A DNA stretch of 64,000 nt, taken from the NCBI GenBank assembly GCA_003962985.1, contig RXKA01000009.1, positions 1 to 64,000 of the forward strand. Reading direction: 5' to 3'. The position numbers and the translations under genes are program-made. This DNA is from Pseudomonadota bacterium (GTDB lineage Bacteria; Pseudomonadota; Gammaproteobacteria; Burkholderiales; UBA11063). A model generated the notes under the pieces. It searched no databases, was not told the DNA's origin, and worked only from the letters and a program-made list of their open reading frames with translations. Shown in pieces: positions 11,596 through 37,159 of the stretch. Positions within the stretch are counted from its first letter, which is position 1. Each line of letters opens with the position of its first letter.

Positions 11596-12243
11596 ATGAG
11601 TGCAAAAGTAATTGTAGTAACAAATCAAAAAGGCGGTTGTGGTAAAACAACTCTTGCGATAAATTTGTCAGGTGCACTTGGTCGTACTCATAAAGTATTG
11701 CTAGTTGATGGTGATCCACAAGGTAGCGCATCACGTTGGGTAGCCAGTGCTGATGACAATGTACCATTCCCTAGTGCGATTATGAACTTATCTCACGTTA
11801 CAGAGAAAGTTGGTCGTGAAATCAAAAAGTATCTTATTGATTATGAATACATTTTTGTTGACTGTCCACCCGCAATTGACAATAAATTCACATCATCTGC
11901 ACTGATGATTGCAGACTTAGCGATTGTGCCAGTTATACCAAGCCCGACTGATTTATGGTCAGCTGTTGGGATTCAACAATTAATTAGTAACGTAAGTGAG
12001 ATTAATGATAGTTTGCAAGCACGATTACTTGCTAATATGTGTCAGACCAATACCAGCATCTCCAAAGAAGCTTTAAGCTTAATCAGTGAATTTGACTTCC
12101 CTAAATTTGAGACTGACATATATCAACGAACGGCATATCGGCAAGCTGCTGCGTTTGGTGGTACAGTATTTAACTTAGATAACAGTAAGGCAAAACAAGA
12201 AATCACTAGCTTAATTAATGAAATAACTAATTTATTACAATAA
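11596..12243 (+). CDS. Orphan ParA/MinD-type ATPase
   Basis: A 215-residue deviant-Walker ATPase of the ParA superfamily: NQKGGCGKTTL (10-20, with signature Lys12 and Lys17), DGDPQ (38-42) and Walker B IFVDCPP (Asp89). It lacks the N-terminal DNA-binding extension of large ParAs, is shorter than typical chromosomal Soj/ParA, and no parB follows. The next gene, 31 bases downstream in the same transcription unit, is a phasin-like protein with a basic N-terminus. By analogy with known cargo-positioning ParA-type ATPases (for example McdA for carboxysomes), it may distribute PHB granules on the nucleoid. The ATPase family is certain; the cargo is inference. Confidence 0.9.
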   Translation: MSAKVIVVTNQKGGCGKTTLAINLSGALGRTHKVLLVDGDPQGSASRWVASADDNVPFPSAIMNLSHVTEKVGREIKKYLIDYEYIFVDCPPAIDNKFTSSALMIADLAIVPVIPSPTDLWSAVGIQQLISNVSEINDSLQARLLANMCQTNTSISKEALSLISEFDFPKFETDIYQRTAYRQAAAFGGTVFNLDNSKAKQEITSLINEITNLLQ

Positions 12244-12749: not shown

Positions 12750-12784
12750 AATAAGCTCCAGTATAAAACTGGAGCTTATTTTTA
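12750..12784. terminator. Strong bidirectional terminator
   Basis: A 13-base perfect stem (AATAAGCTCCAGT and its complement) with loop ATAAA and T-runs on both sides. It ends both the parA/phasin-like unit and the leftward gene at 12782, whose stop codon it abuts. Confidence 0.92.
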
Positions 12785-13342
12785 CATGCTTTCCATATTT
12801 CTAAATAATTGCTGCTGCATCTTAAACATTTCTTCTTGCTGCTGTTGCATCAATTTATTCATATTATCAAAATACTGCTGCTGTGCTTTAAATTGTTGAT
12901 TAATTGAATCTTGCATTTTTTGCAGTTGTTTTTGATTCGCTAACTGACGTTCTTTCTGTAACCGCTTAAATTTGTCAACTTGTTGTTGCGTAATATTGAA
13001 TAAAACTTGATTAGAATTATAATCTTTACCATCAATATTAACTGTAACATATACGGCGCTAGATTCAGGCTCAGTTGGAGCTAAGGTAAATTTACTCATA
13101 AAGACATTACTACTCTCATCACTTGACGAGGTATTAAAATTAACCTCACGTCCTAAAACCTGAAAATTATCTAAACCAGTAAATTTAATATTTTTGATCT
13201 TTTGTGCATTTTTGATTTGCAACGTAAGATTCACTGATTCTGGTGAATTTATCCCACTTAAACTTAATACTGGATTAGCTGCCGCAAAAACACAACTGCT
13301 AGCTAATAATCCAGAAGATAATAATATGTATTTTAATTTCAT
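12782..13342 (-). CDS. Exported BatD-like domain protein with Q-rich coiled-coil tail
   Basis: 186 residues. A signal peptide (MKLKYILLSSGLLASSCVFA) is followed by a beta-rich segment, about 25-115. Its pattern VNLTLQIKNAQKIKNIKFTG...NFQVLGREVNFN...SSNVFMSKFTLAP resembles the first domain of BatD/BatD-like proteins. The last 70 residues are an Asn/Gln/Met-rich helix (QQQQEEMFKMQQQLF), probably coiled coil. Full BatD is much longer and membrane-anchored, so this may be a truncated relative or simply a similar fold. It is probably periplasmic. No other bat genes are nearby. Confidence 0.65.
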   Translation of the reverse strand: MKLKYILLSSGLLASSCVFAAANPVLSLSGINSPESVNLTLQIKNAQKIKNIKFTGLDNFQVLGREVNFNTSSSDESSNVFMSKFTLAPTEPESSAVYVTVNIDGKDYNSNQVLFNITQQQVDKFKRLQKERQLANQKQLQKMQDSINQQFKAQQQYFDNMNKLMQQQQEEMFKMQQQLFRNMESM

Positions 13343-13400
13343 AATTAATTACCTCAATAAATTTATCACAGGCAGATATTTTACCGAAAATTTCACGATT

Positions 13401-13447
13401 TGCCAAGAAACAAGTTAATTAAAATTATTTAACCTACTTTCTTGGCA
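13401..13447 (-). terminator. Long inverted repeat after the C45 hydrolase gene
   Basis: Arms TGCCAAGAAA / TTTCTTGGCA enclose 27 bases that themselves pair partly (GTTAAT / ATTTAAC). It lies just downstream of the gene ending at 13463, but no T-run follows, so termination is uncertain. Confidence 0.35.
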
Positions 13448-13462
13448 ATATCATTAAATAAC

Positions 13463-14773
13463 TTATTTGCTAAAATATTTATATAGCGACAAATCTATCC
13501 ACAAATCTTTATTTTGATGATTACTATAGATAAACTTTCCTGAATTCAAATCACCAATAACCGTATGAATAGTAACTTCAGCAACGGGATAATTTGTTGA
13601 ATTACCGGTTTGATAAATTCCACCATCATCAAGTGAGGTATAGAAAAAAGTTTTTAAATCCACAATATCAAACTGACTATTTTTTGCAATAAATTGCTCT
13701 AAATGATGGTAGCGAACACAAGCATAACTAGGAGTATCTTTAATTTTCTCAACACAATTATGCATAGTTAATTTTGCTCCCTTAAATTCACTACGATATA
13801 AATTAGTGAAGAATAAATAACCATCACCTTGTCCATCTAATATACTTAATGGATTATTTACCGCATGTTCTAATGCTTGGGCTTGAGTTGTATCGACAAT
13901 AGCGGTAAAGTTGGAAACAAACGCGGGATGATTATTCACATATTGGGTAAACTCTGCGCGATTATTAGCACTAAACATACCATAAAAAGCAGTATTTAAA
14001 CCAATATAACCATCAACAAAATTAAATCCAGATACCGATCTTCGTCCATCATTATATTCAGCAAATAAGCCTTTGCTATTTACCCATGTGAATCCAGGAA
14101 TAAAACCAATAAAACCAAAAACAGCAACTCCATTATCATTATTAGCGCTTGGATTATAAATTACTAGATTATGATAATTATCTAATTGAGTAACGGGTGT
14201 GGATAAATCTAAATTACGCGCGACTAACATGGTGTCTGATTGAGAACGTTGTCCCCAAATTGATAAAAATGAACAATGACCCAAACCACCAGCATCAGAT
14301 AATTTATCACCATTAAAACCACTATACAAGGTGATTAATGTAGGTAACATCTCAATAGATAATAATTGACGATACGTTAAACCAGAAGTTTTTGCCATCC
14401 CTTGTAAAATTGCTCTTTCGCGTGCATCTAAACGCCAATTATAATAAGTCCGTAAGACAAAAGATAAAATAGTTTTATAATTTAATTCCGAGAAATATTT
14501 TGGAACTAAGTTTTGATAAATTTCATTCAATTGGTTATATGCCAATGCGCCATATTGTTGACCCATTTCATCATAAGACCCATGAAGATTAAAAATACTT
14601 AATTCACCATTTTTCTCAAAACTACCACGATTACCTTCACTTGAGGTATAACTATCCAATTGCTTACGTTGTGGATTAGATACTGCCTTATCAATTGAAT
14701 AAACCACAAAACCACATACTAATGCTATCAAGGTTAATATAGCAAAGAATATTCCACGAATAAGTTTAATCAT
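13463..14773 (-). CDS. C45-type autocatalytic acyltransferase/hydrolase family protein
   Basis: 436 residues with an N-terminal membrane anchor (about 4-26), so the catalytic part should face the periplasm. The family signature is GHCSFLSIWG (Cys167) followed by DTMLVARNLDL. In the C45/Ntn superfamily (isopenicillin N acyltransferase, carcinine hydrolase, acid ceramidase-like) the Cys becomes the N-terminal nucleophile after self-cleavage. Upstream, HGSYDEMGQQYGALA matches the propeptide region of the group. The substrate is unknown. It lies 49 bases after the VOC gene on the same strand and may be cotranscribed. Confidence 0.8.
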   Translation of the reverse strand: MIKLIRGIFFAILTLIALVCGFVVYSIDKAVSNPQRKQLDSYTSSEGNRGSFEKNGELSIFNLHGSYDEMGQQYGALAYNQLNEIYQNLVPKYFSELNYKTILSFVLRTYYNWRLDARERAILQGMAKTSGLTYRQLLSIEMLPTLITLYSGFNGDKLSDAGGLGHCSFLSIWGQRSQSDTMLVARNLDLSTPVTQLDNYHNLVIYNPSANNDNGVAVFGFIGFIPGFTWVNSKGLFAEYNDGRRSVSGFNFVDGYIGLNTAFYGMFSANNRAEFTQYVNNHPAFVSNFTAIVDTTQAQALEHAVNNPLSILDGQGDGYLFFTNLYRSEFKGAKLTMHNCVEKIKDTPSYACVRYHHLEQFIAKNSQFDIVDLKTFFYTSLDDGGIYQTGNSTNYPVAEVTIHTVIGDLNSGKFIYSNHQNKDLWIDLSLYKYFSK

Positions 14774-14822
14774 TATTATTCTCCATCAAATAAAATTATA
14801 ACTATTTGCAATAAATTGGTTC

Positions 14823-15257
14823 TTACTCAATTATTAACATCTCATTATCATCAAATTGCCACCCATCCCAATAAGCAACCTCCCAATAATAACCATCTAG
14901 ATCTTGAAAATAACCACTATAACCACCCCATACAGTAACTTGCGGTGCTTTGGCTATTACACCACCGATTTGTTCTATTTTAGCAAAAATAGCATCCACT
15001 TCAGCTCTAGATTTAGCATTATAAGCTAAAGTAATACCTGCAAAACCATGATTAATCGAAGGTGGATTATCATGATTAATGTCTTTAGCTAAACTACTCA
15101 AAGGGTATAATTCTAATTTAGTACCACCATTATTAAAAAACACAATCGCAGGATCTGGTTCATTATTCGTAGTTAAAAAACCCAATCCATCACGATAAAA
15201 TTCACGTGCTTTAACTAAATCACGTACACCTAATGCAATTAAATTTATTCGATTCAT
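14823..15257 (-). CDS. VOC-superfamily (glyoxalase / bleomycin-resistance-like) protein
   Basis: 144 residues with two beta-alpha-beta-beta-beta modules typical of the vicinal oxygen chelate fold: LGVRDLVKAREFYRDGLGF at the start and GGYSGYFQDLDGYYWEVAYW at the end, where the Asp-Gly-x-x-x-Glu segment normally provides metal ligands. I chose ATG 15257 because GGAGAG lies seven bases upstream; a further in-frame ATG at 15278 has no ribosome site. Substrate unknown. It follows waaA after a palindrome that contains a parS-like site. Confidence 0.85.
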   Translation of the reverse strand: MNRINLIALGVRDLVKAREFYRDGLGFLTTNNEPDPAIVFFNNGGTKLELYPLSSLAKDINHDNPPSINHGFAGITLAYNAKSRAEVDAIFAKIEQIGGVIAKAPQVTVWGGYSGYFQDLDGYYWEVAYWDGWQFDDNEMLIIE

Positions 15258-15276
15258 TATAATCTCTCCAGAAAAC

Positions 15277-15308
15277 AAAATAGATGTTTCACATGAAACA
15301 TCTATTTT
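15277..15308. terminator. Palindromic hairpin over the end of waaA
   Basis: A perfect inverted repeat with 15-base arms (AAAATAGATGTTTCA and complement) around CA. It overlaps the waaA stop codon, and on the minus strand TTTTGTTTT follows, so the RNA could act as a terminator or attenuator before the VOC gene. The centre of the palindrome is a parS-like site, so it may serve two purposes. Confidence 0.6.
15285..15300. promoter_or_regulatory. parS-like ParB binding site 1
   Basis: TGTTTCACATGAAACA differs from the widely conserved chromosomal parS consensus TGTTTCACGTGAAACA at one central base. It lies 5.3 kb left of the predicted origin. Confidence 0.7.
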
Positions 15309-16546
15309 AAATTAGTAATCAATTCAGCAAAAATCCGCTGTGAAGCACCTTGATATTTATGAGTAAACTCAACACAATTTACTCTAATCTGTTGATATTG
15401 TTCATTATTCATCACAAACTCATCGAGAGTAGCATTTAATTTATTCACATCAGTGAGTTGCACCCCACAACCGTCAGTTAAACAGTTTTTAGCAACCTCA
15501 GTAAAATTATACATTGATGAACCAAAAATTACAGGTACTCCCATAAATATTGCTTCAATCGGATTTTGCCCACCACAATCAGTAAAACTACCACCGATAA
15601 CAGCTAAGTAGCTAATGGCATAATAAGCAAGCATTTCTCCCATACTATCACCAATCACAACTTGAGTACTTGGTAGTATTGGTTGATTAGCTGAGCGTTT
15701 TTGATAACTAATTTGGCGTGATTTTAATAATTCCTCTAACTCTGAAAAACGCTCTGGATGCCTAGGGATTATGAGATATAACACATTTGATCTTAAGGTT
15801 AAATTATCCAAAAATAGTTTATCTTCACCCTCACGAGTTGATGCAAAAGTTATTATTTTACGCGCCCCAAACATAGTAGCAAAATTATTAATCAATGATT
15901 TGATTGATGGCGTGATAACTAAATCAAATTTAGTATTACCGACCACTTGTAATTTACCTTGATAGTTTAGTTTACTAAAATTAGTTGCTGTTTGTTGATC
16001 TTGGCACAAAATGCCTGCTAACTGGTTTATTATTGGCATTAATGCCCAATTAAAACGCTGGTAACCACGACAAGAACGATCCGATAATCGCGCATTAACC
16101 AAATATAATGGAATCTGATAGTGATCGGCAAAATGAATCAGATTTGGCCAAATTTCAGTTTCCATAATTACACCGAGTTTAGGCTTGAATATACGATAAA
16201 ACTGTTTTACACAAAAACTTAAATCATATGGCACATAGTGAATAATAGCCTGTGGGTATAATTGGTGTGCAGTTGCACGACCTGTTGGAGTCATTGTAGT
16301 AATCAAAATCTGATATTCAGGTAATTCACTAGAAATTAACTCTACCAGTTTTTGCATTGCCCTAGTCTCACCCACTGATACCGAGTGCAACCATATAATT
16401 GGCTTAGTACTAGGGTTAGTTAATTTATAACCAAACCGTTCAGACCAATTATCTAGATATGCTGGGTTTTTTTTACCGCGTTTTTTAAGATACAATGGTA
16501 ATAATGGCGCAACTAAATAAGTTAATGCCGAATAAAGTTTACGCAT
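15302..16546 (-). CDS. waaA: 3-deoxy-D-manno-octulosonic acid (Kdo) transferase
   Basis: Adds Kdo to lipid IVA in the inner core of lipopolysaccharide, on the cytoplasmic face of the inner membrane. 414 residues. The N-terminal hydrophobic anchor (about 6-20) precedes IWLHSVSVGE, where Glu60 corresponds to the catalytic glutamate of the family. The C-terminal GT-B half has GGSFTDCGGQNPIEA for CMP-Kdo binding. The start lies two bases after the stop of the small upstream gene, so the two are translated together. Whether it adds one or two Kdo cannot be judged. Confidence 0.95.
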   Translation of the reverse strand: MRKLYSALTYLVAPLLPLYLKKRGKKNPAYLDNWSERFGYKLTNPSTKPIIWLHSVSVGETRAMQKLVELISSELPEYQILITTMTPTGRATAHQLYPQAIIHYVPYDLSFCVKQFYRIFKPKLGVIMETEIWPNLIHFADHYQIPLYLVNARLSDRSCRGYQRFNWALMPIINQLAGILCQDQQTATNFSKLNYQGKLQVVGNTKFDLVITPSIKSLINNFATMFGARKIITFASTREGEDKLFLDNLTLRSNVLYLIIPRHPERFSELEELLKSRQISYQKRSANQPILPSTQVVIGDSMGEMLAYYAISYLAVIGGSFTDCGGQNPIEAIFMGVPVIFGSSMYNFTEVAKNCLTDGCGVQLTDVNKLNATLDEFVMNNEQYQQIRVNCVEFTHKYQGASQRIFAELITNLK

Positions 16547-16548
16547 TG

Positions 16549-16836
16549 TTATTCTTCATTATCCACAGGCTTGTCGGTAGATGACTTATCAGTTTTTGGC
16601 GTTTCTTTTGGCTTCATCATTGAAGCTGAGGTACTCATAAAATCCATAAACTTATTCATCATTGTTATAGGATTAACTTCTTGCAATGCTTTAGCTGAGT
16701 TTGCCATAGTTTTCATTGCTTCCATCTGCATTTTGTATTGTTCCAAATATGTGATTAGATTATTTGCAAAACTAATTTGTTTTTCGCATTCTTCAATACA
16801 TTTATCTGGTGATGTAAACATTTCATTATTAAACAT
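16549..16836 (-). CDS. Small helical, possibly phasin-like protein
   Basis: 95 residues, mostly helical: MFTSPDKCIEECEKQISFANNLITYL, then AKALQEVNPITMMNKFMDFM, and a charged disordered tail KPKETPKTDKSSTDKPVDNEE. The opening MFTSPDK and the AKALQEV block recall short phasins, but the similarity is weak and by eye. AGGAG precedes ATG. It is directly coupled to waaA, whose start is two bases away. A DnaA-box sequence (16559-16567) lies within its last codons. Confidence 0.55.
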   Translation of the reverse strand: MFNNEMFTSPDKCIEECEKQISFANNLITYLEQYKMQMEAMKTMANSAKALQEVNPITMMNKFMDFMSTSASMMKPKETPKTDKSSTDKPVDNEE

Positions 16837-16975
16837 TATTATTTCTCCTGTTTAAAACCTTACTTAGCTGTGAAATATAATTTCATTGTTAATTTTTTGT
16901 GTAGTGGTTGTAAATACTTTATTATTAACACCTGAAATTTCGCAGATACAAATTGGCTGTAATAAAATCAATTCT

Positions 16976-17006
16976 CATGTCGAAAAAAGTGTAAATTTTC
17001 GACATG
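16976..17006. other. Inverted repeat, hairpin of unknown role
   Basis: CATGTCGAAAA (16976-16986) pairs with TTTTCGACATG (16996-17006). It lies in a 223-base gap between mdaB and the small gene at 16836. The T-run on the plus strand is poor and no rightward gene ends here. It could be a terminator for mdaB on the minus strand or an operator. Confidence 0.4.
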
Positions 17007-17059
17007 TTATTTTCTTATGATGAAAAATCAGTCTTTTTTCACCATCTGATAATGTTTTA

Positions 17060-17638
17060 CTATTTCAATAAATCTTCAATCATTCCTGCTAAACGCAAAG
17101 TATCGGCTTCAATTTGCGGGGCTTTAAAAATATCATTGGCGATAAAAGTCGGTAACGGTGTTGCGCCAACGAATTTAAACGCGTTGTGGACAGCAATAAA
17201 AGCATCATCGATACCAAGACCATGGAATAACTGTTCTTTTGCGTTAAACGCCTCTAAAGGAGCATTAGCGGTGATTGATAACATATATTTGTTAGTCAAT
17301 AATCCACCACTACCATATAATGCATTTTCTACATCACGTCCATCACTGCGATAAATTTTGCCATAACCACTCATAAATACTTCATCAATATATTTTTTAC
17401 CTAACCATGGTAATCCCATCCAATACATTGGGAATTGTAAAATAACAATATCTGCCGCAACAATACTTGCTACTTCATTTTCAATAGTATAACCATCATC
17501 AATATTAGTAACCGTATAATTTACATTATGTTGTGCTAAGACATTAGTAATGGTACTAACAAAATGTTTAGTTAAGTTACCATCAGCAACACCTTCCCAA
17601 CGTTGGTGAGCATTTATTATATGAACATTTTTAATCAT
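17060..17638 (-). CDS. mdaB: NAD(P)H-dependent quinone reductase, MdaB type
   Basis: A flavodoxin-fold FAD/FMN enzyme that reduces quinones in two-electron steps and protects against oxidative stress. 192 residues. Long family blocks are readable: ILQFPMYWMGLPWLGKKYID, YGSGGLLTNKYMLSITANAP and PLPTFIANDI, matching the MdaB pattern. It is monocistronic by spacing. Low uncertainty on family. Confidence 0.93.
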   Translation of the reverse strand: MIKNVHIINAHQRWEGVADGNLTKHFVSTITNVLAQHNVNYTVTNIDDGYTIENEVASIVAADIVILQFPMYWMGLPWLGKKYIDEVFMSGYGKIYRSDGRDVENALYGSGGLLTNKYMLSITANAPLEAFNAKEQLFHGLGIDDAFIAVHNAFKFVGATPLPTFIANDIFKAPQIEADTLRLAGMIEDLLK

Positions 17639-17801
17639 GATAATCCTGTGAATATGTCAAGCCTTAATAATTAAAGCTGAGTGTTTAAAATAATTCTGAT
17701 ATTACCTATATTGTGTAATATCTTTTGATAATTGATTGATAAATTCTAATTGTAAATCAATAAAGTTTATAAAATACATCATTATTATAAAACAAAAATT
17801 A

Positions 17802-17832
17802 AAAACCTTTGATTGATTTAACCAAAGGTTTT
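17802..17832 (-). terminator. Terminator after the lipase-like gene
   Basis: Stem AAAACCTTTG / CAAAGGTTTT with an 11-base loop, followed on the minus strand by TTTAATTTTTG. Confidence 0.7.
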
Positions 17833-17867
17833 AATAAAATAATTAAATAGCTAAACTAAATTATTGA

Positions 17868-19373
17868 TTAAGGAAAAAATTTATTCAGTATACCTACCGT
17901 TGCAGCATACATTATTGGGTTATTGTGATCTATTTGTGCATTGTGCTCCTGATATCTATCATTGTGAATAGCTGAGATAGATACTAGACCAGATTTGGAA
18001 CGCTTGCTAACATTTTTATATGCAACTAATGAGTTAAACGGTGTTACTAATGAATCACGATCTAAATGTAAATAAAGTATTGGTGATTGTGTTTGCCAAT
18101 CTTTCAAATCAATAGCATGATATGTTTGTAGATAGTCTAATGATAATTGATTATCTGGTAGTACTATGTTAGCAATGGAGTTATTATATTCCGCATATTG
18201 AGTTGCTTTAGTTGCTCGATTATAAATAATATCTTGGATTGCTAATGTACTTGGTGCAGAAGGTAAAAATAAATCCATTAATTTTAAGTTCTGCCCTGAT
18301 TCATTAACAAAATTACATAAACTAGCTTGCAGGATTTGTTGACAGCTAGTTTTAGTGTAATAGTTGTATGAATTTACCGCATATGCGACTAACCCAGGCT
18401 TAGCTAACGCCGTTACGTATTGATTTTGTGCCAAGTAAGTATTATGTTGTTGCACACTTTCATTAGCATATTCTTTTTTGATTTGACTATCCGACAAATC
18501 AAATGCACCAGACATTGGTAATGTCAAAGCCAATTTAGTATTTGTATTTGTCAATGATGCAGTATTATTTTGAATCAGATATGAAGCCCATTGACTTAGC
18601 ATACCACCTTCGGAGAAACCATTTAAAATCAATGGTAATTTATTTGATGGTGATAGAGCTAATTTAGTCAATAAGTTATTAGTTGCACGCAACATATTAA
18701 TACCTGCAGCTACATTCACTTTAGGATACATATATGGATGCGCTTCATTTGCATCAACACCAAAACCTAGTAAATCTGGTAAAACGACAATATAGCCTTG
18801 TGATGCATACATAGCAGGATAAAATAAACCTGTTTTAGGGTTGTTCTCAGGGCTGTAATCATATGGATTATACATGGTTGGATGGTAATACAAGATAACA
18901 CCTTTAATCTTATTAGCATGTATGCCATGAGGTACAAAGATACTTCCCGAAACTGTTTTTACTTGATAATTATGATTATTGGCAGGGATCATATTCAAAG
19001 TATCATAAGTAATATTATACACATTGACACTAGTAACTCCTAATTTATTGTTCTTGATTGATTTTAGATCAAAAGCAAAATCATGATTCAGGTTAGTTAA
19101 ATTTTGTTGGCAAATTTTTGAATCTTGATTCATTCCCATACATAAATTTTGTACAGCATTATTTTTTATCGTATCAAGTGAATAATTAGTAATGTATTCT
19201 GAACTTAGTAAATTACCATAGTTAGCGGAAAATAATTGTTCTTGAGCAATAATTTGAGGAGTTTTTTTAATGACTTGCTTGGATGAATCATTATTTAATT
19301 GTAGCTGATTGGTGGTACATGATATTAAACCTAAACTTAATCCAATCGCAAATAATTTACTTTTATTATTCAT
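17868..19373 (-). CDS. Secreted lipase/esterase-like lipoprotein (alpha/beta hydrolase)
   Basis: 501 residues from ATG 19373. This start gives a lipoprotein signal peptide with lipobox LISC (MNNKSKLFAIGLSLGLISC), and AAGAG precedes it; an earlier in-frame start at 19430 would put 19 extra residues before the signal. The hydrolase core shows the nucleophile elbow GFSEGG, a late Asp in LHLDRDSLVTPFNS, and a His near SAIHNDRYQEH. The layout resembles secretory lipases. It is probably anchored in the outer membrane or periplasm, with unknown substrate. Confidence 0.8.
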   Translation of the reverse strand: MNNKSKLFAIGLSLGLISCTTNQLQLNNDSSKQVIKKTPQIIAQEQLFSANYGNLLSSEYITNYSLDTIKNNAVQNLCMGMNQDSKICQQNLTNLNHDFAFDLKSIKNNKLGVTSVNVYNITYDTLNMIPANNHNYQVKTVSGSIFVPHGIHANKIKGVILYYHPTMYNPYDYSPENNPKTGLFYPAMYASQGYIVVLPDLLGFGVDANEAHPYMYPKVNVAAGINMLRATNNLLTKLALSPSNKLPLILNGFSEGGMLSQWASYLIQNNTASLTNTNTKLALTLPMSGAFDLSDSQIKKEYANESVQQHNTYLAQNQYVTALAKPGLVAYAVNSYNYYTKTSCQQILQASLCNFVNESGQNLKLMDLFLPSAPSTLAIQDIIYNRATKATQYAEYNNSIANIVLPDNQLSLDYLQTYHAIDLKDWQTQSPILYLHLDRDSLVTPFNSLVAYKNVSKRSKSGLVSISAIHNDRYQEHNAQIDHNNPIMYAATVGILNKFFP

Positions 19374-19404
19374 TTTGTAACTCTTAAAAAAATTTATATT
19401 TAAG

Positions 19405-19413
19405 TTATCCACA
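19405..19413 (+). promoter_or_regulatory. Outlying DnaA box
   Basis: An exact TTATCCACA in the leader of the lipase-like gene, 1.1 kb left of the origin cluster. Confidence 0.5.
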
Positions 19414-19480
19414 GATAATAACAAATTCATTTTAAGATAACAATAGTCAATTTTGTCTAATTGTAAAAAATAATGAGAAA

Positions 19481-19513
19481 GTCTTAATTAACAATTTAAT
19501 TGCTAATTAAGAC
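19481..19513 (-). terminator. Weak hairpin after waaC
   Basis: GTCTTAATTA / TAATTAAGAC just beyond the waaC stop on its strand. The stem is AT-rich and only a broken T-run follows. Confidence 0.4.
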
Positions 19514-19527
19514 TAATGATATGATTA

Positions 19528-20481
19528 TTAAATCAAACCTTGGATATGTTCTATTACTGTTGCTGGTGCAACTTGCTGTTGATAACCACCCAAATTATGA
19601 GCAATTTCACTCTCTAACATACCGACATAATTAGGATTACTGTCTAGATAAATAGCTAATGTAGCTTTACCCAATAGATTGGCACAATGTGTAAATCCTG
19701 TATCAACACCAATAACTAAATCAGCATTATTAATCAAACCAATTAATTGTAGTGGTAACATTTTATCGATTAGTTTAACTCTATCATGCGATAAAGCACT
19801 AACTAACTGTTGGGCAAATTTTTGCTCAGCAGAATTACTATAAGTTAAAACAATTTGTTTAGAGGTATTGTTTATAATCCAGTTTGATATAGTTAACCAA
19901 TTCACTAAATTCCATTGTTTACTAACTTTGGATGTTCCATGTAAAAACAAAATATAGCCATCATTAAATTCATAATCTAAATTTTCTTGTTTAAGTATAA
20001 AATTAATTTGGCGTAAATCATGCTCTAAATTAAAAATTTTTGCAATTAAACCTCTAAATCTAACGACAGCAATATCATTTTGATTCACAGTATAGGTGAA
20101 ATCATAAAATAAACTAGCTAATGATTCACGAGCAGATTTCTTATCATAACCATATACATAGCCATTAAACAAAAATTTAGCCAACAATGCAGACTTTAAT
20201 AATCCCTGTGTATCAATGATGTAATCATATTCAATATTTGGTAGTGATTTTTTATATTGAATTAACTTACTGATTAAAGATAACTTATTTTTTTTCCATT
20301 TTCGTAAAGGTATAGGAATAACATTATCAATTAACGGTGATAACTTGGCTATTTCAGTAAAATTTTCATCAACTAGCCAATCAATAGTAGCATCTGGAAA
20401 AACTTTCTTTAAATCAGGTAAAATGGTAAATCCATGGAATATATCACCAATTGATGAAAGTCTAATAACAAGAATACGCAA
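19528..20481 (-). CDS. waaC: Lipopolysaccharide heptosyltransferase I
   Basis: Adds the first L-glycero-D-manno-heptose to Kdo in the LPS inner core. 317 residues, GT9 family. The N-terminus RILVIRLSSIGDIFHGFTIL and FPDATIDWLVDENF match WaaC, and the donor-site region reads LVIGVDTGFTHCANLLGKATLAIY. Both possible starts are TTG; I chose 20481 because GGGGGA lies five bases upstream and the family begins M-R-I-L. The adjacent waaA lies 3 kb away on the same strand. Its promoter must lie inside the predicted origin. Confidence 0.93.
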   Translation of the reverse strand: MRILVIRLSSIGDIFHGFTILPDLKKVFPDATIDWLVDENFTEIAKLSPLIDNVIPIPLRKWKKNKLSLISKLIQYKKSLPNIEYDYIIDTQGLLKSALLAKFLFNGYVYGYDKKSARESLASLFYDFTYTVNQNDIAVVRFRGLIAKIFNLEHDLRQINFILKQENLDYEFNDGYILFLHGTSKVSKQWNLVNWLTISNWIINNTSKQIVLTYSNSAEQKFAQQLVSALSHDRVKLIDKMLPLQLIGLINNADLVIGVDTGFTHCANLLGKATLAIYLDSNPNYVGMLESEIAHNLGGYQQQVAPATVIEHIQGLI

Positions 20482-20572
20482 AATATCCCCCAATAAAATA
20501 AATCTAAGTACTACATAATACTATAAATCAATATTTAATTAACAATAAAAATGTTATCAACTAAAAAAGGTA

Positions 20573-20599
20573 GTTATCCACAGGATATTGTGGATAACT
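20573..20599. repeat. Inverted pair of DnaA boxes
   Basis: AGTTATCCACA and its complement TGTGGATAACT separated by six bases, at the waaC-side edge of the origin. It holds the only exact minus-strand box in the cluster. Confidence 0.8.
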
Positions 20600-20745
20600 C
20601 TATTTTATGGTGTTAGCCTCTATATAGTTATCCACATAATTACAAATTATCAAAATTTGATTCACATTTTTATATAATTACATTACTAAGTTAATCACAC
20701 CTTAAATTAATGCATAATAATTTGATATATAATTAAATTTTATAC

Positions 20746-20816
20746 TTATCCACAGGTTTTTATTTACTAATAGTAATAATAAGATATATATATTATATTA
20801 GTTAATAATAGAAATG
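20746..20816 (+). repeat. Box/triplet/AT-tract module A of oriC
   Basis: TTATCCACAGG, then TAATAGTAATAATAAG, then ATATATATATTATATTAG and a TTAATAATAG tail. It resembles module B 300 bases further right. The TAA/TAG triplets fit the published DnaA-trio pattern of bacterial unwinding elements; function is inferred. Confidence 0.55.
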
Positions 20817-21046
20817 AACAACTATTAAAAAAATTCATCTTGTGAATAAAAATAGAAAATTTTCTTAAATTTTGATTAAATAATATCTTGTTTACTTAAC
20901 GCTATAATTATGTACATAAATTAATACTTATCCACAGAATTTAACTAATTAAAATTTTTATCCACAATATATTAGTCAGTAATAATGAAGATTATCTACA
21001 AATTTAGTTTAATGCTATTTACTTGATTTACATAATAAAATTGTGG

Positions 21047-21116
21047 TTATCCACAGCCAACTAGTCTAATAATAATAACTATAAAAGATATATATTATTT
21101 TATTAACTAATAAATG
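21047..21116 (+). repeat. Box/triplet/AT-tract module B of oriC
   Basis: TTATCCACAGCC, then CTAATAATAATAACT, then AAAGATATATATTATTTTA and a TTAACTAATAAATG tail. The box-to-GATATATA distance is 40 bases here and 37 in module A. Confidence 0.55.
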
Positions 21117-21288
21117 TTAAAATTGAGAGCTGAAATCTAATTTATTAATACATATTTTTTATTAAATGCTTAACTATTTGATATGTTTATAAAAATAGTT
21201 ATCTTCTTAAATTTTATTTAAGCGTAACATTTTGATATATAAAGATATTTTGTACTAATAAATATTAGTTAACTAAAAGGACACTTAG

Positions 21289-22065
21289 ATGGCAAAAGAA
21301 AATAAATATACAATTCAAAAAATAACTTATTTACATCAATGGACAGATCATTTATTTAGTTTTAGAATTACTCGTGATGAAGGATATAAATTTATTCCAG
21401 GTCAATTCGCTCGTTTGGGTGTAAAAAAAGAAGATGATACTATTGTATGGCGTGCTTATTCGATTGTATCAGCTGATTATGATGAAGAACTAGAATTTTA
21501 TTCAATTGTAGTACCTGATGGTGAGTTTACACAACGTTTAAAAAACCTTAAAATAAATGATGAAATATATATAGATAAAACAAATTATGGTTTATTAACT
21601 ACTGATCGTTTTGAAAACGGTAAAGATCTTTGGTTTTTATCCACAGGTACAGGCTTAGCACCATTTATTTCTATTATGTATGATTTCTCAATTTGGGAAC
21701 AATATGACAAAGTTATTTTGGTACATGGTGTTCGTGAAGCTAATGAATTAGCATACCAAGATAAAATAAATGAATTTTTTACTCATGAATACTATGGCGA
21801 TTTAGTTAAAGATAAATTACAGTATGTAAAAATTGTTTCACGTGAAACATTTGGTGCAGATTTATACGGCAGAATTACTACTTTAATTGAAAATGGTGAA
21901 TTGGAAAAATTTACTAATACACCAATTACTATTGAAAATAGTCGAATCATGATTTGTGGTAATCCACAGATGGTAGATGATACACGTAAATGCTTGGGTG
22001 CACGAGGGTTAACCATTTCTAAGCGTGCCAATCCAGGTAATATGGCTGTTGAGAATTTGTGGTAA
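21289..22065 (+). CDS. fpr: Ferredoxin/flavodoxin-NADP+ reductase
   Basis: Transfers electrons between NADPH and ferredoxin or flavodoxin using FAD. 258 residues, typical of the short bacterial class. RAYS (55-58) binds FAD, STGTGLAPFIS (118-128) binds NADP, and the protein ends NPGNMAVENLW, a C-terminus usual in Fpr. A good AAAGGA site precedes ATG. The coding sequence carries a perfect parS (21834-21849) and a DnaA box (21637-21645), so its codons are shared with chromosome-maintenance sites. Confidence 0.95.
   Translation: MAKENKYTIQKITYLHQWTDHLFSFRITRDEGYKFIPGQFARLGVKKEDDTIVWRAYSIVSADYDEELEFYSIVVPDGEFTQRLKNLKINDEIYIDKTNYGLLTTDRFENGKDLWFLSTGTGLAPFISIMYDFSIWEQYDKVILVHGVREANELAYQDKINEFFTHEYYGDLVKDKLQYVKIVSRETFGADLYGRITTLIENGELEKFTNTPITIENSRIMICGNPQMVDDTRKCLGARGLTISKRANPGNMAVENLW
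21637..21645 (+). promoter_or_regulatory. DnaA box inside fpr
   Basis: Exact TTATCCACA within the STGTG codons of fpr, 350 bases right of the intergenic origin. Confidence 0.5.
21834..21849. promoter_or_regulatory. parS ParB binding site 2 (perfect consensus)
   Basis: TGTTTCACGTGAAACA, a complete 16-base match to the conserved chromosomal parS, inside fpr and within 0.6 kb of the predicted origin. Confidence 0.88.
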
Positions 22066-22082
22066 AGACAATAACTAAAATT

Positions 22083-22110
22083 AGACCTCTAATTATTTGG
22101 AGGTCTTTTT
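22083..22110 (+). terminator. Terminator after fpr
   Basis: Stem AGACCTC / GAGGTCT followed by TTTT, ending the fpr transcript immediately before the third parS-like site. Confidence 0.85.
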
Positions 22111-22125
22111 GTTTCATGTGAAACT
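22110..22125. promoter_or_regulatory. parS-like ParB binding site 3
   Basis: TGTTTCATGTGAAACT, 14 of 16 matches to parS, between the fpr terminator and the rsmB start. Confidence 0.6.
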
Positions 22126-22129
22126 AAAA

Positions 22130-23365
22130 ATGAAATTATATAAGCAAGTAAAAGAAATATTAGAATTAGTTTATAGTGGTAGTAATTTAAATTTAGTAAT
22201 GGATCAATATAAAGGTATAGAAGATGAACCTCGTCTTAAATATTTAGTATATGGTGTAATTCGTTATAATTTTGCATTAGAATACCTAATTAGAAAATTA
22301 TCCAAACATCCTAATGATAAAGTACAAACTATTTTATTTATTGGTATCTTTGAGTTATGGTTTAGTAATAAACCTAATTATGCGGTAGTAAATGATTTAG
22401 TTGAGTTTACAAAAGAATCTTTTGAAAATCCAAAAATAGCTAGTTTTGTTAATGCAATCCTCAGATCTTTTCAACGTGATAAAGAGTCTCTGCTTAGTGA
22501 ACTTAATAAAGATTATTCAACTAAATTTAACTTACCTAACTGGTTTATTGATAAACTCAAGATTAGTGATAAACCTAATTATTTATCAATTATATCTGGT
22601 TTAAGTTATCACCCTGCTTTTGGTATTCGTGTAAATCAACGTAAAATAAAGTTAGTTGATTATGTTAGTAAATTAGTTAATGCTAATATTGAATATGAAT
22701 TGATTAATAATAAATTAGTTTTATCTGAAGCTTGTGCAATTGAAAAATTACCAGGTTTTTTTGATGGTGAGGTTAGTGTTCAAGATATTGGTGCCCAATA
22801 TGTAGTTGATATTTTAACTAGAAATAATGTTAGTCCTAAATTTGTTTTAGATGCATGTAGCGCCCCTGGTGGTAAAGCATGTCAAATCTTAGAAAATTAT
22901 GATTGCGATTTATTGGCTGTAGATATAGCTCATGAACGCTTAGCTAAGGTTAAGCAGAATTTAGACCGCCTTAATTTATCTGCCCAATTAATCGTTGGTG
23001 ATGCTACTAATCAAAAATGGAATAAAGATCATCAAATGTTTGATTTAGTGATCGCGGATGTTCCGTGTTCGGCAACTGGTACTATTAAACGTAATCCAGA
23101 TATCAAATTAACCCGTAAACTAAGTGATATTGATAATTTTGTTATGCAACAACGTGAAATAATCAATAATTTATGGAGTAATGTTAGTAACGATGGTTAC
23201 TTGATGTATATAACCTGTTCAGTTTTACATGATGAGAATCAAGATAATGTAACATGGATTAAAGCTAACCTAGCAAATTCTATTCTTATTGAAGAATTGC
23301 AAATTTTACCAAGTTTACATAATGATGGTTTATTTTATGCATTAATAAAAAAACATAATGGATAA
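22130..23365 (+). CDS. rsmB: 16S rRNA m5C967 methyltransferase
   Basis: Methylates C967 of 16S rRNA with S-adenosylmethionine. 411 residues from ATG 22130. An earlier in-frame TTG (22097) lies inside the fpr terminator hairpin and is unlikely. An N-terminal NusB-like helical domain (1-130) precedes the methyltransferase domain with the SAM loop DACSAPGGKA. The two active cysteines are in DVPCSATGTIKRNPDIK and MYITCSVLHDEN. The ribosome site is weak. It begins a rightward run with ntrY and ntrX. Confidence 0.93.
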   Translation: MKLYKQVKEILELVYSGSNLNLVMDQYKGIEDEPRLKYLVYGVIRYNFALEYLIRKLSKHPNDKVQTILFIGIFELWFSNKPNYAVVNDLVEFTKESFENPKIASFVNAILRSFQRDKESLLSELNKDYSTKFNLPNWFIDKLKISDKPNYLSIISGLSYHPAFGIRVNQRKIKLVDYVSKLVNANIEYELINNKLVLSEACAIEKLPGFFDGEVSVQDIGAQYVVDILTRNNVSPKFVLDACSAPGGKACQILENYDCDLLAVDIAHERLAKVKQNLDRLNLSAQLIVGDATNQKWNKDHQMFDLVIADVPCSATGTIKRNPDIKLTRKLSDIDNFVMQQREIINNLWSNVSNDGYLMYITCSVLHDENQDNVTWIKANLANSILIEELQILPSLHNDGLFYALIKKHNG

Positions 23366-23370
23366 TTAAA

Positions 23371-25497
23371 ATGAAAAAAGTAAATATAATTTTTTTAATA
23401 ACGCTGTTAATTTTGATTATTTTTAGTTACTTTTATGTGACGATCTATTCTAAATTTGATGTTATGCTGTATTTAAAAGATTACAAACAAATAATTCAGC
23501 TAAATCATATAATCGAAACATTACTAATTGTCACGATAGTATTTTTTATCTATCGGATATTTTTTCGTAAGACCTATGTCTTTGGTTCGGTCATAACTAA
23601 AAAAATATTTTTGTTATTAGCTTCTGTAATTATCATACCTTCATTAATAAATATTAAAATTGCTAATTATTTTATTGATAATACAGTTAATCGTTTGTTT
23701 AATCCGCAAATAGAAGAACTTTTAGATAATAGTTTTAATATTGCTGAAGAAAGTATTAAGTATTTTTCTAAGGAATTACGGAAGAAATCAATTATTGCGG
23801 CTGAGTATCTTAAATTAATGGATAAAAATGAAAGTAAGAATGATCTAAATAAAGTACGTAATATTTTAGATGTTAATGGTCTTAGTATTTATGATAATAG
23901 TGGTAAAATGATTATTCAGGATCAGGTTAATAAACAAAATTATTTTCTACCTAAATTGCCACGTTACATAGTGAATAAAATTGTTAATACGGGTTATTTT
24001 TATGAAATCAACCGTGATATAAATGGTAATTATGTTTTTTATTATTATCAAGCATATGATAACAATAAGATTGTCGCCCTAACTCAGTTTGCACCTGACT
24101 TTATTCGTATTGATAATACCAAGATCATTCAGAATAAAGATTTATACCAAGGCTTATTGTTAAACAAAGATAATCTAAAAGCTGTTTATACTAGTACATT
24201 GATAATTAGTGTGTTATTATCTATATCAATTGCGGTTTTATTAACATTGTTTTTTGCGCAGTTTTTAATTAAACGGATTTCTAATCTAATTGAGAATATT
24301 GAGTTAATTAAAAAAGGTTCTTACAAAAATAATAACTCATTCCAAGGAAATGATGAACTATCGCAATTAATAACTGCATTCAATGATATGAGTCATAGTC
24401 TTGAAAAAGCGAATATGATTGAAAAATTTCAACGCGAACAGATTATAGATTACAAAAATTATCTTGAAAACTTAATTAATAATTTAAGTTTGAGTGTAGT
24501 TGTGTATGATGAACACTTACATATAAAAAATATTAATTCAATTACCGAACAAATTCTCGGCATTAAAATTGAAGAAATTATTGATACGCCGATTGATCAA
24601 TGGAATGATAAATATACTCATTTGGAAGATATAATTGATTTAATCAAAGCTAATATTGGTAAACATTATAATGATTGGGAAGAAAATGTTATAGTACGCT
24701 ATAAACATTCTATCCGTAATTTATACATCAAGACGCTTAAATATCAAGTGAAAGATGGAGTGGAATATATTACCCTTATTAGTGATGTGACTAATCTTAT
24801 TAAAGCTAAACAAAATCAAGCATGGGCTGATATTGCTAAACGTTTAGCGCATGAAATTAAAAATCCATTAACACCAATTGTACTGTCTGCTGAACGTATT
24901 GAAATGAAGTTGGTACCTAAATTATCAGAACCTGACCAGCAATTTTTACAGCGCTTAGTAAGGCAAATTATTATTCAGGTTGAAGATTTGAAAGGATTAG
25001 TTAATAAATTTAGAGATTTTGCTAATATTAATAAACCTAATTTGTCAAGAACGGATTTGAAGCATTTCTTCAATCAGTTTATGGCACTTTATGAAAATAT
25101 GAATTTTATTAATCTTGAATTTGACTTATTAGATGGTGAAACTGAAATCATGGGAGACTCTAGTCTATTACGGCAAGTATTCCATAATTTGGTAAAAAAT
25201 GCTATTGAGAGCGTTGAAAATCAAGAGAATAAACAAGTATTAGTGAAAATAACTAAAGAAAATGAATATGCTTGTATCTTAATAAAAGATAATGGTAGTG
25301 GATTTGATGATATCATTATGAATAATTTATTTGAACCATATCGAACCACTAAAGGAGTTAAAGGTAGTGGTCTTGGCATGGCGATTGTTAAGAAAATTAT
25401 TGATGAACATAATGGTAAAATAGAAGTATTTAATGACAATGGAGCTAACATTGTAGTAAAATTGCCGTTTATAACAAATAATGTTGTTTTTTTATAG
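23371..25497 (+). CDS. ntrY: NtrY-type membrane sensor histidine kinase
   Basis: 708 residues. Membrane helices lie near 5-25, 47-62, 78-100 and 273-298, with an extracytoplasmic sensor region between the last two. Then come a HAMP segment (about 300-350), a PAS domain (about 362-475), the H-box LAHEIKNPLTPIVLSAERI with phospho-acceptor His494, an N-box HNLVKNAIESVEN, and ATP-binding loops KDNGSGFDD and KGSGLGMAIVKKI. The layout is that of NtrY. The start is five bases after the rsmB stop, and the partner regulator follows nine bases downstream. Its signal is unknown; redox or nitrogen control is usual for the family. Confidence 0.9.
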   Translation: MKKVNIIFLITLLILIIFSYFYVTIYSKFDVMLYLKDYKQIIQLNHIIETLLIVTIVFFIYRIFFRKTYVFGSVITKKIFLLLASVIIIPSLINIKIANYFIDNTVNRLFNPQIEELLDNSFNIAEESIKYFSKELRKKSIIAAEYLKLMDKNESKNDLNKVRNILDVNGLSIYDNSGKMIIQDQVNKQNYFLPKLPRYIVNKIVNTGYFYEINRDINGNYVFYYYQAYDNNKIVALTQFAPDFIRIDNTKIIQNKDLYQGLLLNKDNLKAVYTSTLIISVLLSISIAVLLTLFFAQFLIKRISNLIENIELIKKGSYKNNNSFQGNDELSQLITAFNDMSHSLEKANMIEKFQREQIIDYKNYLENLINNLSLSVVVYDEHLHIKNINSITEQILGIKIEEIIDTPIDQWNDKYTHLEDIIDLIKANIGKHYNDWEENVIVRYKHSIRNLYIKTLKYQVKDGVEYITLISDVTNLIKAKQNQAWADIAKRLAHEIKNPLTPIVLSAERIEMKLVPKLSEPDQQFLQRLVRQIIIQVEDLKGLVNKFRDFANINKPNLSRTDLKHFFNQFMALYENMNFINLEFDLLDGETEIMGDSSLLRQVFHNLVKNAIESVENQENKQVLVKITKENEYACILIKDNGSGFDDIIMNNLFEPYRTTKGVKGSGLGMAIVKKIIDEHNGKIEVFNDNGANIVVKLPFITNNVVFL

Positions 25498-25506
25498 GCT
25501 GACGAC

Positions 25507-26088
25507 ATGGATAAGATGATATTAATCGTCGATGACGAATTAGGTATTCGCGAATTACTACGTGAATGTTTAGAAGATGAAGGTTATATAGTTAAGTTAG
25601 CAGAAAATGCGCTAGAAGCCGATAAAATAGTAAAAGAACACCGTTTTGATTTAATTTTAATGGATGTTTGGTTACCTGATATGGATGGTGTTTCATTATT
25701 TAAACGCTTCTTGTCAAATGGAATTATTACACCAGTTATTATGATGTCTGGTCATGCATCTATTACAAGTGCATTGGAAGCTATTCGTATTGGTGCTCGT
25801 GATTTCTTAGAAAAACCTCTTTCATTAAGCAAATTATTGCCATTAGTTGATAAACATATTTTAAAAGAACATGTGAATAATGATGGTGTTTTAGAAGATG
25901 TTTCTGAAATTATCACTTTAGATTTAAACAGTCCATTAAAAGGAATTAAAGAAAATCTTGAGCGTCGTTATTTCTTATATCATATGAATAAGTATCGCGG
26001 TAATATTACAAAAATAGCTGAAGTTTCAGGTGTAGATCGTGCACACCTATATCGTAAATTTAAAACGTTAGGTATTAAAATTAAATAA
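25507..26088 (+). CDS. NtrX-like response regulator lacking the AAA+ domain
   Basis: 193 residues. The receiver domain (1-120) has Asp9/Asp10, phospho-acceptor Asp53 in LMDVWLPDMDG and Lys103 in LEKPLS, and its MMSGHASITSALEAIRIGARDFLEKP block is NtrX-like. The C-terminus (about 148-193, RRYFLYHMNKYRGNITKIAEVSGVDRAHLYRKFK) is a Fis-type helix-turn-helix. The sigma-54-activating AAA+ domain normally between them is absent, so it cannot be a canonical sigma-54 activator. This gives a RegA/PrrA-like architecture with NtrX-like sequence. It ends in a strong terminator. Confidence 0.9.
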   Translation: MDKMILIVDDELGIRELLRECLEDEGYIVKLAENALEADKIVKEHRFDLILMDVWLPDMDGVSLFKRFLSNGIITPVIMMSGHASITSALEAIRIGARDFLEKPLSLSKLLPLVDKHILKEHVNNDGVLEDVSEIITLDLNSPLKGIKENLERRYFLYHMNKYRGNITKIAEVSGVDRAHLYRKFKTLGIKIK

Positions 26089-26090
26089 AT

Positions 26091-26125
26091 AATTCCGTAG
26101 TAGATACTACGGAATTCTCTTTTTA
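26091..26125 (+). terminator. Terminator after the response regulator gene
   Basis: Twelve-base perfect arms AATTCCGTAGTA / TACTACGGAATT followed by CTCTTTTT. Confidence 0.9.
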
Positions 26126-26138
26126 TAGTGTGAAAATA

Positions 26139-27506
26139 ATGCAGATATTTAATACATTAAGTAAGCAAAAAGAAGAACTTAAAACCATAGAACCAAATAA
26201 ATTAAAAATGTATGCTTGTGGTTTAACTGTATATGATTATGCGCATCTAGGTCATGGACGTCAGGCTGTCGCATTTGATATGATTAGACGCTGGTTTATA
26301 GCAAGTGGTTATGATGTAACATATGTTAAAAACATTACTGATATTGATGATAAAATTATTACTCGTGCTAATGAAAATGGTGAAACTATTCAACAATTAA
26401 CAGAACGTTTCATTCAATATATGCATGAAGATTTCGATCGTTTAGGCGTATTAAGACCTGATTTTGAGCCAAAGGCTACTGAATATATTCCGCAAATGTT
26501 GAATATCATTCAGGATTTAGTTAATAAAGAATTTGCTTATCAAGCGCTGAATGGTGATGTGTATTACCGCGTACGAAAATTTGAAGGATATGGTAAATTA
26601 TCAGGTAAATCATTAGATGATTTGCGCGCTGGTGAACGTGTTGATATTGATAATTATAAAGAAGATCCACTAGATTTTGTATTATGGAAATCGTCCAAAG
26701 AAGGTGAACCGTATTGGGATTCACAATTTGGTAAAGGTCGTCCTGGTTGGCATATTGAATGTTCCGCTATGTCAGAAGATATTTTGGGTAACCATTTTGA
26801 TATTCATGGTGGTGGTCAAGATTTGCAATTTCCACATCATGAAAATGAAATTGCACAAAGTGAGGCTCATAATGGTTGCTCTTTTGCTAATTATTGGATG
26901 CACAATGGTTTTCTCAATATCAATGATGAAAAAATGTCTAAATCTCTAGGTAATTTTTTTACTTTACGTGATGTATTAAATGAATACAGTCCAGAAGTTG
27001 TTCGCTTCTTTATGTTACGAACTCATTATCGGAGTCCATTAAATTTTAGTTATGATAACTTAATTGATGCCAAAAATGCACTAAGTAAAATGTATCAAAG
27101 TTTAAGAAAGTATGATAGCTTAATTGTTGATAGTAAAAATATTGATTGGTCAAATCAGTACGCACAAAAATTTAAAGATGCAATGGATGATGATTTTAAT
27201 ACTTCATTAGCTATTAGCGTATTATTTGAATTAGTTTCTGAAATTAATCGTACCAGTGATATTAATTTGGCGCAGTTATTATTAAATTTGGCAAATTTAA
27301 TTGGTATTTTGATTAGTAATCCTGATGATTTCTTAAAATCAGGTATTGATACAGATAGTAACTATGTTGAAGAAATGATTGCTAAACGTAATCAAGCACG
27401 TGCAGATAAAAATTTTAAATTATCTGATGAAATTCGCGACCAATTACTAGCTGAAGGAATACTTCTGGAAGATAGTAAAAATGGTACAACTTGGCGTAAA
27501 CTATAA
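26139..27506 (+). CDS. cysS: Cysteinyl-tRNA synthetase
   Basis: Charges tRNA-Cys. 455 residues from ATG 26139, where MQIFNTLSKQKEE matches the family N-terminus; GTG 26130 would add three residues. Neither has a clear ribosome site. The class I HIGH-type motif is HLGHGR, and KMSKS lies in DEKMSKSLGNF. Zinc ligands include the Cys of YACGLTVYD, the Cys of WHIECSAMS and the HH of FPHHENEIAQ. It is a single-gene unit between two hairpins. Confidence 0.97.
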   Translation: MQIFNTLSKQKEELKTIEPNKLKMYACGLTVYDYAHLGHGRQAVAFDMIRRWFIASGYDVTYVKNITDIDDKIITRANENGETIQQLTERFIQYMHEDFDRLGVLRPDFEPKATEYIPQMLNIIQDLVNKEFAYQALNGDVYYRVRKFEGYGKLSGKSLDDLRAGERVDIDNYKEDPLDFVLWKSSKEGEPYWDSQFGKGRPGWHIECSAMSEDILGNHFDIHGGGQDLQFPHHENEIAQSEAHNGCSFANYWMHNGFLNINDEKMSKSLGNFFTLRDVLNEYSPEVVRFFMLRTHYRSPLNFSYDNLIDAKNALSKMYQSLRKYDSLIVDSKNIDWSNQYAQKFKDAMDDDFNTSLAISVLFELVSEINRTSDINLAQLLLNLANLIGILISNPDDFLKSGIDTDSNYVEEMIAKRNQARADKNFKLSDEIRDQLLAEGILLEDSKNGTTWRKL

Positions 27507-27517
27507 CAATGATAAAG

Positions 27518-27543
27518 TGCAGAAATAAAATTTATCTTCTGCA
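27518..27543 (+). terminator. Weak hairpin after cysS
   Basis: TGCAGAAATAAA pairs with TTTATCTTCTGCA with one bulged base; only a broken T-run (TGTTATTATT) follows. Confidence 0.4.
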
Positions 27544-27616
27544 TGTTATTATTGTATATAATAGTTAAGTTTAAATTTACATTTATCTAACAATTTAATA
27601 ATTTGAGTATGCTATA

Positions 27617-28808
<1,192 letters not shown>

Positions 28809-28819
28809 ATCGGTGAAGA

Positions 28820-28843
28820 ATCCTTTCTAAAAGGATGTTTTTT
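28820..28843 (+). terminator. Terminator-like hairpin between atpB and atpE
   Basis: ATCCTTT / AAAGGAT with a three-base loop, then GTTTTTTT. It sits inside an operon that must be read through, so it may act as a partial terminator, a processing site or an mRNA-end stabiliser. Confidence 0.6.
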
Positions 28844-28873
28844 TAAAATTTAATTTTTTCATTTTTTACGTAG

Positions 28874-29170
<297 letters not shown>

Positions 29171-29205
29171 TTCAAAATAGCTAGACTTTGTAAAGGAGTT
29201 TAAGC

Positions 29206-29676
29206 GTGGATATTAACGCAACATTACTAGGACAAGCGATAACCTTTGCTATTCTAGTATGGTTTACAATGAAATTCGTTTGGCCGCCTTTAAACGGAAT
29301 GATTGAAGAGCGTTCTAAGCGTATTGCTGATGGTTTGGCAGCTGCTGAAAAAGGTAAGCAACAATTATTAGATGCAGAATCTAGAGTCGCTGATGAATTG
29401 AAAAAAGTTCAAGGACGTGCGAATGAGATTATTGCGAATGCTGAAAAGCGCTCTAATCAAATTGTTGAAGCTGCTAAAGACAAAGCTCAGTCAGAGGCTG
29501 ATAGAATTATCGCCGATGCTAAATCTCAAATCGAGCAAGAGTTTTTACGCATGAAAGAAGATTTACGTTTACAAGTGTCTGATTTGGTTGTACGTGGTGC
29601 AGAGCAAATCTTACGTGCGGAGATAGATCGTTCTCGTCATGAGAAAATTTTAGCTCAACTTAAGACGGAGTTATAA
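29206..29676 (+). CDS. atpF: F1F0 ATP synthase subunit b
   Basis: 156 residues: one N-terminal transmembrane helix (about 8-27, with [11 protein letters not shown] after it) and a long charged coiled coil that forms the peripheral stalk. The start is GTG 29206 with AAGGAG upstream. Standard place between atpE and atpH. Confidence 0.95.
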
Positions 29677-29681
29677 TTACA

Positions 29682-30218: not shown

Positions 30219-30233
30219 AAATAGGAGCGATTC

Positions 30234-31775: not shown

Positions 31776-31799
31776 GCTTTATTTTCTTAAGGAATAAAG

Positions 31800-34072
<2,273 letters not shown>

Positions 34073-34087
34073 TAGGAGCAAGGGGTT

Positions 34088-34522: not shown

Positions 34523-34550
34523 TTTTTTGTCTTGGTTTATTTAATTTTGG

Positions 34551-34579
34551 TTGCGTATATAAAACTCCTGTGCTAAAAT
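34551..34579 (+). promoter_or_regulatory. Promoter of the small lipoprotein gene
   Basis: TTGCGT (34551-34556), 17-base spacer ending TGC, then TAAAAT (34574-34579). It lies about 70 bases before the start codon. Confidence 0.7.
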
Positions 34580-34647
34580 ACGCCCTAAGCTATTGTTTAA
34601 TAAAATAGATAGATTTTATTGCAAAAATTATTGATGAAAGGTATGAA

Positions 34648-34848: not shown

Positions 34849-34866
34849 TTAGTTTTAGTTTTGCAA

Positions 34867-34902
34867 GATAAAAGCCAAGCTCTCAACAGCTTGGCTTTTA
34901 TC
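34867..34902 (+). terminator. Strong terminator after the small lipoprotein gene
   Basis: 15-base perfect arms GATAAAAGCCAAGCT and complement with loop CTCAAC. The T-run is partly inside the stem, and CGTTT follows. Confidence 0.85.
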
Positions 34903-34918
34903 GTTTATAAGTAATAAA

Positions 34919-37155: not shown

Positions 37156-37159
37156 AATT

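Follow-up and report, generated by a model that had tools for sequence, protein, structure and literature searches.

We found that the gene-free spacer between waaC and fpr in this Aquella species is very probably oriC, within a window of 64 kb (the whole stretch of DNA that was analysed). An unannotated origin between these two genes had been proposed in the initial annotation, and the DnaA boxes, the skew minimum and the clustering of parS sites agree on that place. Our computations covered the box cluster, the switch in strand composition, the parS clustering, the conservation of place and box positions among congeners, the stability of two candidate unwinding modules, and the dnaA locus, where no origin signature was seen.

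DnaA boxes and flanking genes

The spacer is 795 bp long with an AT content of 82%. Recounting recovered the seven exact and two near-match boxes first reported in about 800 gene-free, AT-rich bases, with exact TTATCCACA boxes at 20574+, 20589−, 20628+, 20746+, 20928+, 20958+ and 21047+. Seven exact boxes are far beyond chance, as 500 Markov sequences with the same dinucleotide make-up held a mean of 0.006 and a maximum of 1. The 30-bp register of the boxes at 20928 and 20958 is retained in congeners G005 and G002/G008. An extra exact box occurs at 21637, within fpr.

Family searches identified the neighbours as waaC and an fpr-type reductase, in agreement with the heptosyltransferase and ferredoxin reductase named initially, although waaC may instead start at a TTG codon at ~20481. 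The same searches placed waaA, rsmB, an NtrY/NtrX-like two-component pair, cysS and the atp operon near the spacer. Genes on the left and right are transcribed away from it: every ORF of at least 120 aa within 12782–20493 lies on the minus strand, and those within 21289–40376 lie on the plus strand, save one antisense ORF, which bears out the earlier remark that gene direction turns to plus rightward. An Rfam search gave no match at the waaC-fpr locus.

Table 1 Features of the putative origin region (window coordinates).
Feature	Position	Strand	Evidence or remark
waaC, LPS heptosyltransferase I, left flank	19528–20493	−	Family match TIGR02193
Gene-free spacer between waaC and fpr, very probably oriC	20494–21288	.	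Skew minimum; congener skew at orthologous junction
Inverted DnaA box pair (20574+/20589−)	20574–20597	.	Position kept in most congeners
DnaA box	20628–20636	+	Exact TTATCCACA; spacer alignment
Predicted unwinding module 1: DnaA box, spacer, TAC-TAA-TAG-TAA-TAA-TAA, TA-rich	20746–20815	+	Duplex stability
DnaA box with one mismatch, TTATTCACA	20841–20849	−	
Two direct DnaA boxes (20928 and 20958), 30 bp apart	20928–20966	+	Spacer alignment
DnaA box with one mismatch, TTATCTACA	20992–21000	+	
Predicted unwinding module 2: DnaA box, 11 bp, TAATAATAATAA, TA-rich	21047–21124	+	Duplex stability
fpr, ferredoxin--NADP reductase family, right flank	21289–22065	+	PRK10926, E 2e-57, under the curated cut-off of that model
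Imperfect parS, 1 mismatch	15285–15300	+	
Exact parS palindrome TGTTTCACGTGAAACA	21834–21849	+	Inside fpr reading frame, 546 bp in
Imperfect parS, 2 mismatches	22110–22125	+	

Strand composition and parS sites

Cumulative GC skew in the window reached its minimum at 21079, inside the spacer, and keto skew at 21350. Because the host draft consists of 207 contigs (2.54 Mb), host skew was taken from contig stretches. The chromosome of Aquella oligotrophica P08 (G016) is a single contig of 2,820,660 bp (PMC6612550), which we sampled in forty spaced stretches (~17% of the chromosome) plus the contiguous 100–240 kb. Within this contiguous region the cumulative GC minimum was at 161127, at the same waaC-fpr junction, with fpr on the minus strand at 160475–161251. 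We equate this junction with that of the window because synteny is shared around fpr and waaA, with fpr, rsmB, the two-component pair, cysS and atp on one side and waaA and a ParA-like ATPase on the other. Keto skew in A. oligotrophica was negative from ~1.6 Mb via the record end to ~160 kb and positive between ~200 kb and 1.5 Mb, the stretch at 280 kb being the one clear exception, and a second switch occurred at ~1.54–1.55 Mb, about half a chromosome from fpr (exactly opposite point, 1.57 Mb). The GC-skew check suggested with the initial annotation, run on the window and on the sampled complete congener, thus put the minimum at the box cluster.

A pattern search of the 2.54-Mb draft returned only three parS-like sites, all at 15.3–22.1 kb of the window, and the perfect parS first noted 0.6 kb away proved to be the exact copy within fpr. 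Many congeners also have parS-like sites in or close to fpr. A ParA-family ATPase is encoded near the origin in the host (11596–12243) and in A. oligotrophica, and the sole parB is distant from it (A. oligotrophica 2,309,588, ~670 kb off; host contig C51).

These signals bear on whether the boxes, instead of forming an origin, might titrate or reactivate DnaA in the manner of datA or DARS sites, or belong to a waaC/fpr promoter under DnaA control. Similar box groups occur outside oriC in the host genome, such as one upstream of a recC-like gene with a counterpart in A. oligotrophica, and the DARS sites of E. coli are located in the uvrB and mutH promoters (PMC5835720). However, the skew minimum, the switch in gene polarity and the sole parS sites all meet at the spacer, and a regulatory role would leave the origin unaccounted for, such that we consider this explanation very improbable.

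Separation from dnaA

Neither dnaA nor dnaN lies beside the box cluster. The host dnaA-dnaN-gyrB genes are on contig C84 at 19.4–24.5 kb, which puts dnaA at least 43.5 kb from the spacer (20.5 + 23.0 kb from contig ends), and in A. oligotrophica 47 kb separate the origin from the dnaA start at 208268. The early suspicion that origin and dnaA had separated was therefore correct, and the position of dnaA, which it was advised to check, is elsewhere and has no denser box cluster. The 3.5 kb surrounding dnaA contained no TTWTNCACA box in the host or in any of four congeners, and the dnaA-dnaN spacer was short (10–101 bp) and box-free in 17 of 17 Aquella genomes, host included. Skew drops steadily across dnaA on the host contig with no switch; A. 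oligotrophica also shows a local dip around dnaA, less deep than the fpr minimum.

Elsewhere in the order, most families have a dnaA-dnaN spacer of ~175–530 bp that often bears boxes, and dnaA is flanked by box clusters in many of them, which might favour two origins in Aquella or an active one retained at dnaA. The short, box-free spacers of the genus, the lack of boxes in the 3.5 kb at dnaA and the uninterrupted skew at host dnaA all speak against this, and we give it next to no weight. The dnaA-dnaN spacer is short (36–106 bp) in some of the other families too, so displacement of the origin may not be confined to Aquella. Short spacers without boxes (36–88 bp) were seen in other families at L129, L130, L131, L133 and L144.

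An origin belonging to a plasmid or secondary replicon is hardly credible here: box clusters and parS occur on plasmids too, but this contig carries the atp operon and cysS, and the syntenic block sits on the single 2.82-Mb chromosome of A. oligotrophica. A search of a plasmid collection yielded only weak matches to the fpr gene.

Twin candidate unwinding modules

Basal unwinding of the B. subtilis type, by a DnaA box and DnaA-trios, was reportedly described by Richardson et al. in 2016. The rule for this system is a DnaA box, 0–16 bp and at least three trios (PMC8287927), an arrangement that occurs at both 20746 and 21047 in the spacer. The two modules share one plan, in which TTATCCACA is followed by 10 or 11 bp (the search rule used), TA(A/G)-type trios and TATATATTATAT-like DNA, and they lie ~300 bp apart in direct orientation. 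Each sets AT-rich DNA of low duplex stability next to a box: the least stable 60-mer of 18–24 kb is 20756–20815, in module 1, and the second least stable is 21065–21124, in module 2. Their mutual alignment score was 27.5, compared to 4.4 ± 4.0 (maximum 17, n = 500) for random spacer-like sequence.

Among congeners, a strict module search found a single module in G020, G022, G002 and G016 and none in G013, G015, G018 and G004, with TAATAA tracts visible in the alignment for both groups. The second half of the spacer (boxes 20928, 20958 and 21047 plus module 2) is present in the alignment in G005, G020, G022, G013 and G002 and missing in G016, G015, G018 and G004.

From this layout we infer DnaA binding, melting and the use of both modules. 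DnaA from a gene at least ~43.5 kb distant would bind the box array and spread from the boxes at 20746 and 21047 onto the adjoining TA(A/G) repeats, one or both TA-rich modules would melt and permit helicase loading, forks would depart both ways from the spacer, and the nearby parS sites would serve segregation of the origin. We are highly confident in this joint account of the spacer as oriC, with a distant dnaA, melting by box array and module, bidirectional forks and parS-based segregation.

Box drift and DnaA residues across Aquella

The waaC-fpr spacers of ten Aquella genomes could be aligned with conserved box positions, and TTATNNACA was enriched ~4- to 15-fold in each. Orthologous boxes mostly retain their terminal TTAT and ACA and vary at positions 5–6, which are CC in the host species and G005 and TA, TC, AC or CA in most boxes of the remaining congeners. 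Drifted boxes frequently read TTATTAACA, which occurs four times in the spacers of G013 and G004 (0.09 and 0.07 expected). The A. oligotrophica spacer, an origin by skew, holds no exact TTATCCACA. The exact boxes first reported are thus real for the host, but their perfection does not serve as a signature, as it is limited to the host species and one close relative.

Within DnaA, the base-contacting residues R399 and R432–H434 are unchanged. The basic-loop residue that we take to be K397 in E. coli numbering is lysine in G000 (host), G005 and G020 and serine or alanine in the other congeners examined, and T435 is serine in G015 and G018 and alanine in G020. Both T435 and R399 matter in box binding (PMC5742627). 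Canonical TTATCCACA boxes occur in two of the three K397 species, the host's group, and because these three form one nested clade in the DnaA tree, the coincidence of K397 and box sequence amounts to a single event, does not count as a statistical association and is only a lead. K397 alone failed as an explanation for canonical boxes, since G020 has the lysine, without a canonical spacer box, and carries T435A. A wider reading, in which an origin fixed in place had its boxes rewritten (TTAT(T/C)(A/C)ACA with S/A397 in most species versus the K397 clade) and a duplicated module provides some species with two possible melting sites, is offered tentatively, as a combination we think rather unlikely to hold in full.

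Comparison with known origins

The host spacer resembles E. coli oriC in having a box array adjoining an AT-rich unwinding element and in lying apart from dnaA (PMC8287927), but its neighbours are waaC and fpr compared to gidA and mioC, and it has two unwinding modules compared to one. The adjacent mnmG/gidA of E. coli-type origins is missing from the junction; the gene is on contig C157 in the host and at 299 kb in A. oligotrophica, ~138 kb from the origin. GATC, enriched in E. coli-type origins, is absent from the 795-bp spacer, which therefore shows no sign of Dam/SeqA control. The B. subtilis-type basal unwinding system shares the order of box, ~11 bp, TA(A/G) repeats and TA-rich DNA (PMC8287927), whereas in the host spacer the module occurs twice, in direct orientation ~300 bp apart and away from dnaA. 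Betaproteobacterial origins, usually located at dnaA-dnaN, likewise have TTATCCACA boxes within a non-coding spacer, but the Aquella dnaA-dnaN spacer is short and empty and the boxes are at waaC-fpr. The oriC of Synechococcus lividus PCC 6715 is far from dnaA and dnaN, while that of its relatives is usually dnaN-adjacent (DoriC 10.0, PMC6323995); it parallels Aquella in this departure from its relatives' layout and differs in being cyanobacterial, with TTTTCCACA boxes.

The separation of oriC and dnaA put forward initially therefore stands, but not as a novelty: this kind of arrangement is not new because it is known in E. coli and in single cases (PMC8287927, PMC6323995). Its place, twin modules and box drift set the Aquella origin apart as a variant worth recording. 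We found no description of a waaC-fpr origin in the literature searched, which was covered in part, and the paper describing Aquella mentions neither oriC nor dnaA.

These results place the origin for the entire genus, where it would escape a search confined to dnaA-dnaN or requiring perfect boxes, and add a betaproteobacterial example of oriC-dnaA separation. Aquella offers a natural series, fixed in place, for following how the boxes and the DNA-binding domain of DnaA change in concert, and also lends itself to asking if a single origin can melt at two sites.

Other box groups in the genus

The group upstream of the recC-like gene (host contig C76) has three exact boxes at 1566–1757 and a fourth within the gene; as a rival origin it was rejected, no other origin sign being found there. 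Its intergenic boxes are at 1566+ and 1580− (an inverted pair), 1592− (TTATACACA) and 1749−, and the A. oligotrophica counterpart (L114, 2194–2228) is a DnaA-box group with an inverted pair, also upstream of a RecC-like gene. The group may be a site of the DARS or datA type, or else a recC promoter under DnaA control. TATCCACAGCTTTTGTGGATAA is common to intergenic DNA of G015 (C10, 2291–2313) and A. oligotrophica (L114, ~2220), beside unrelated genes; the RecC-like gene lies downstream of it not in G015 but in A. oligotrophica.
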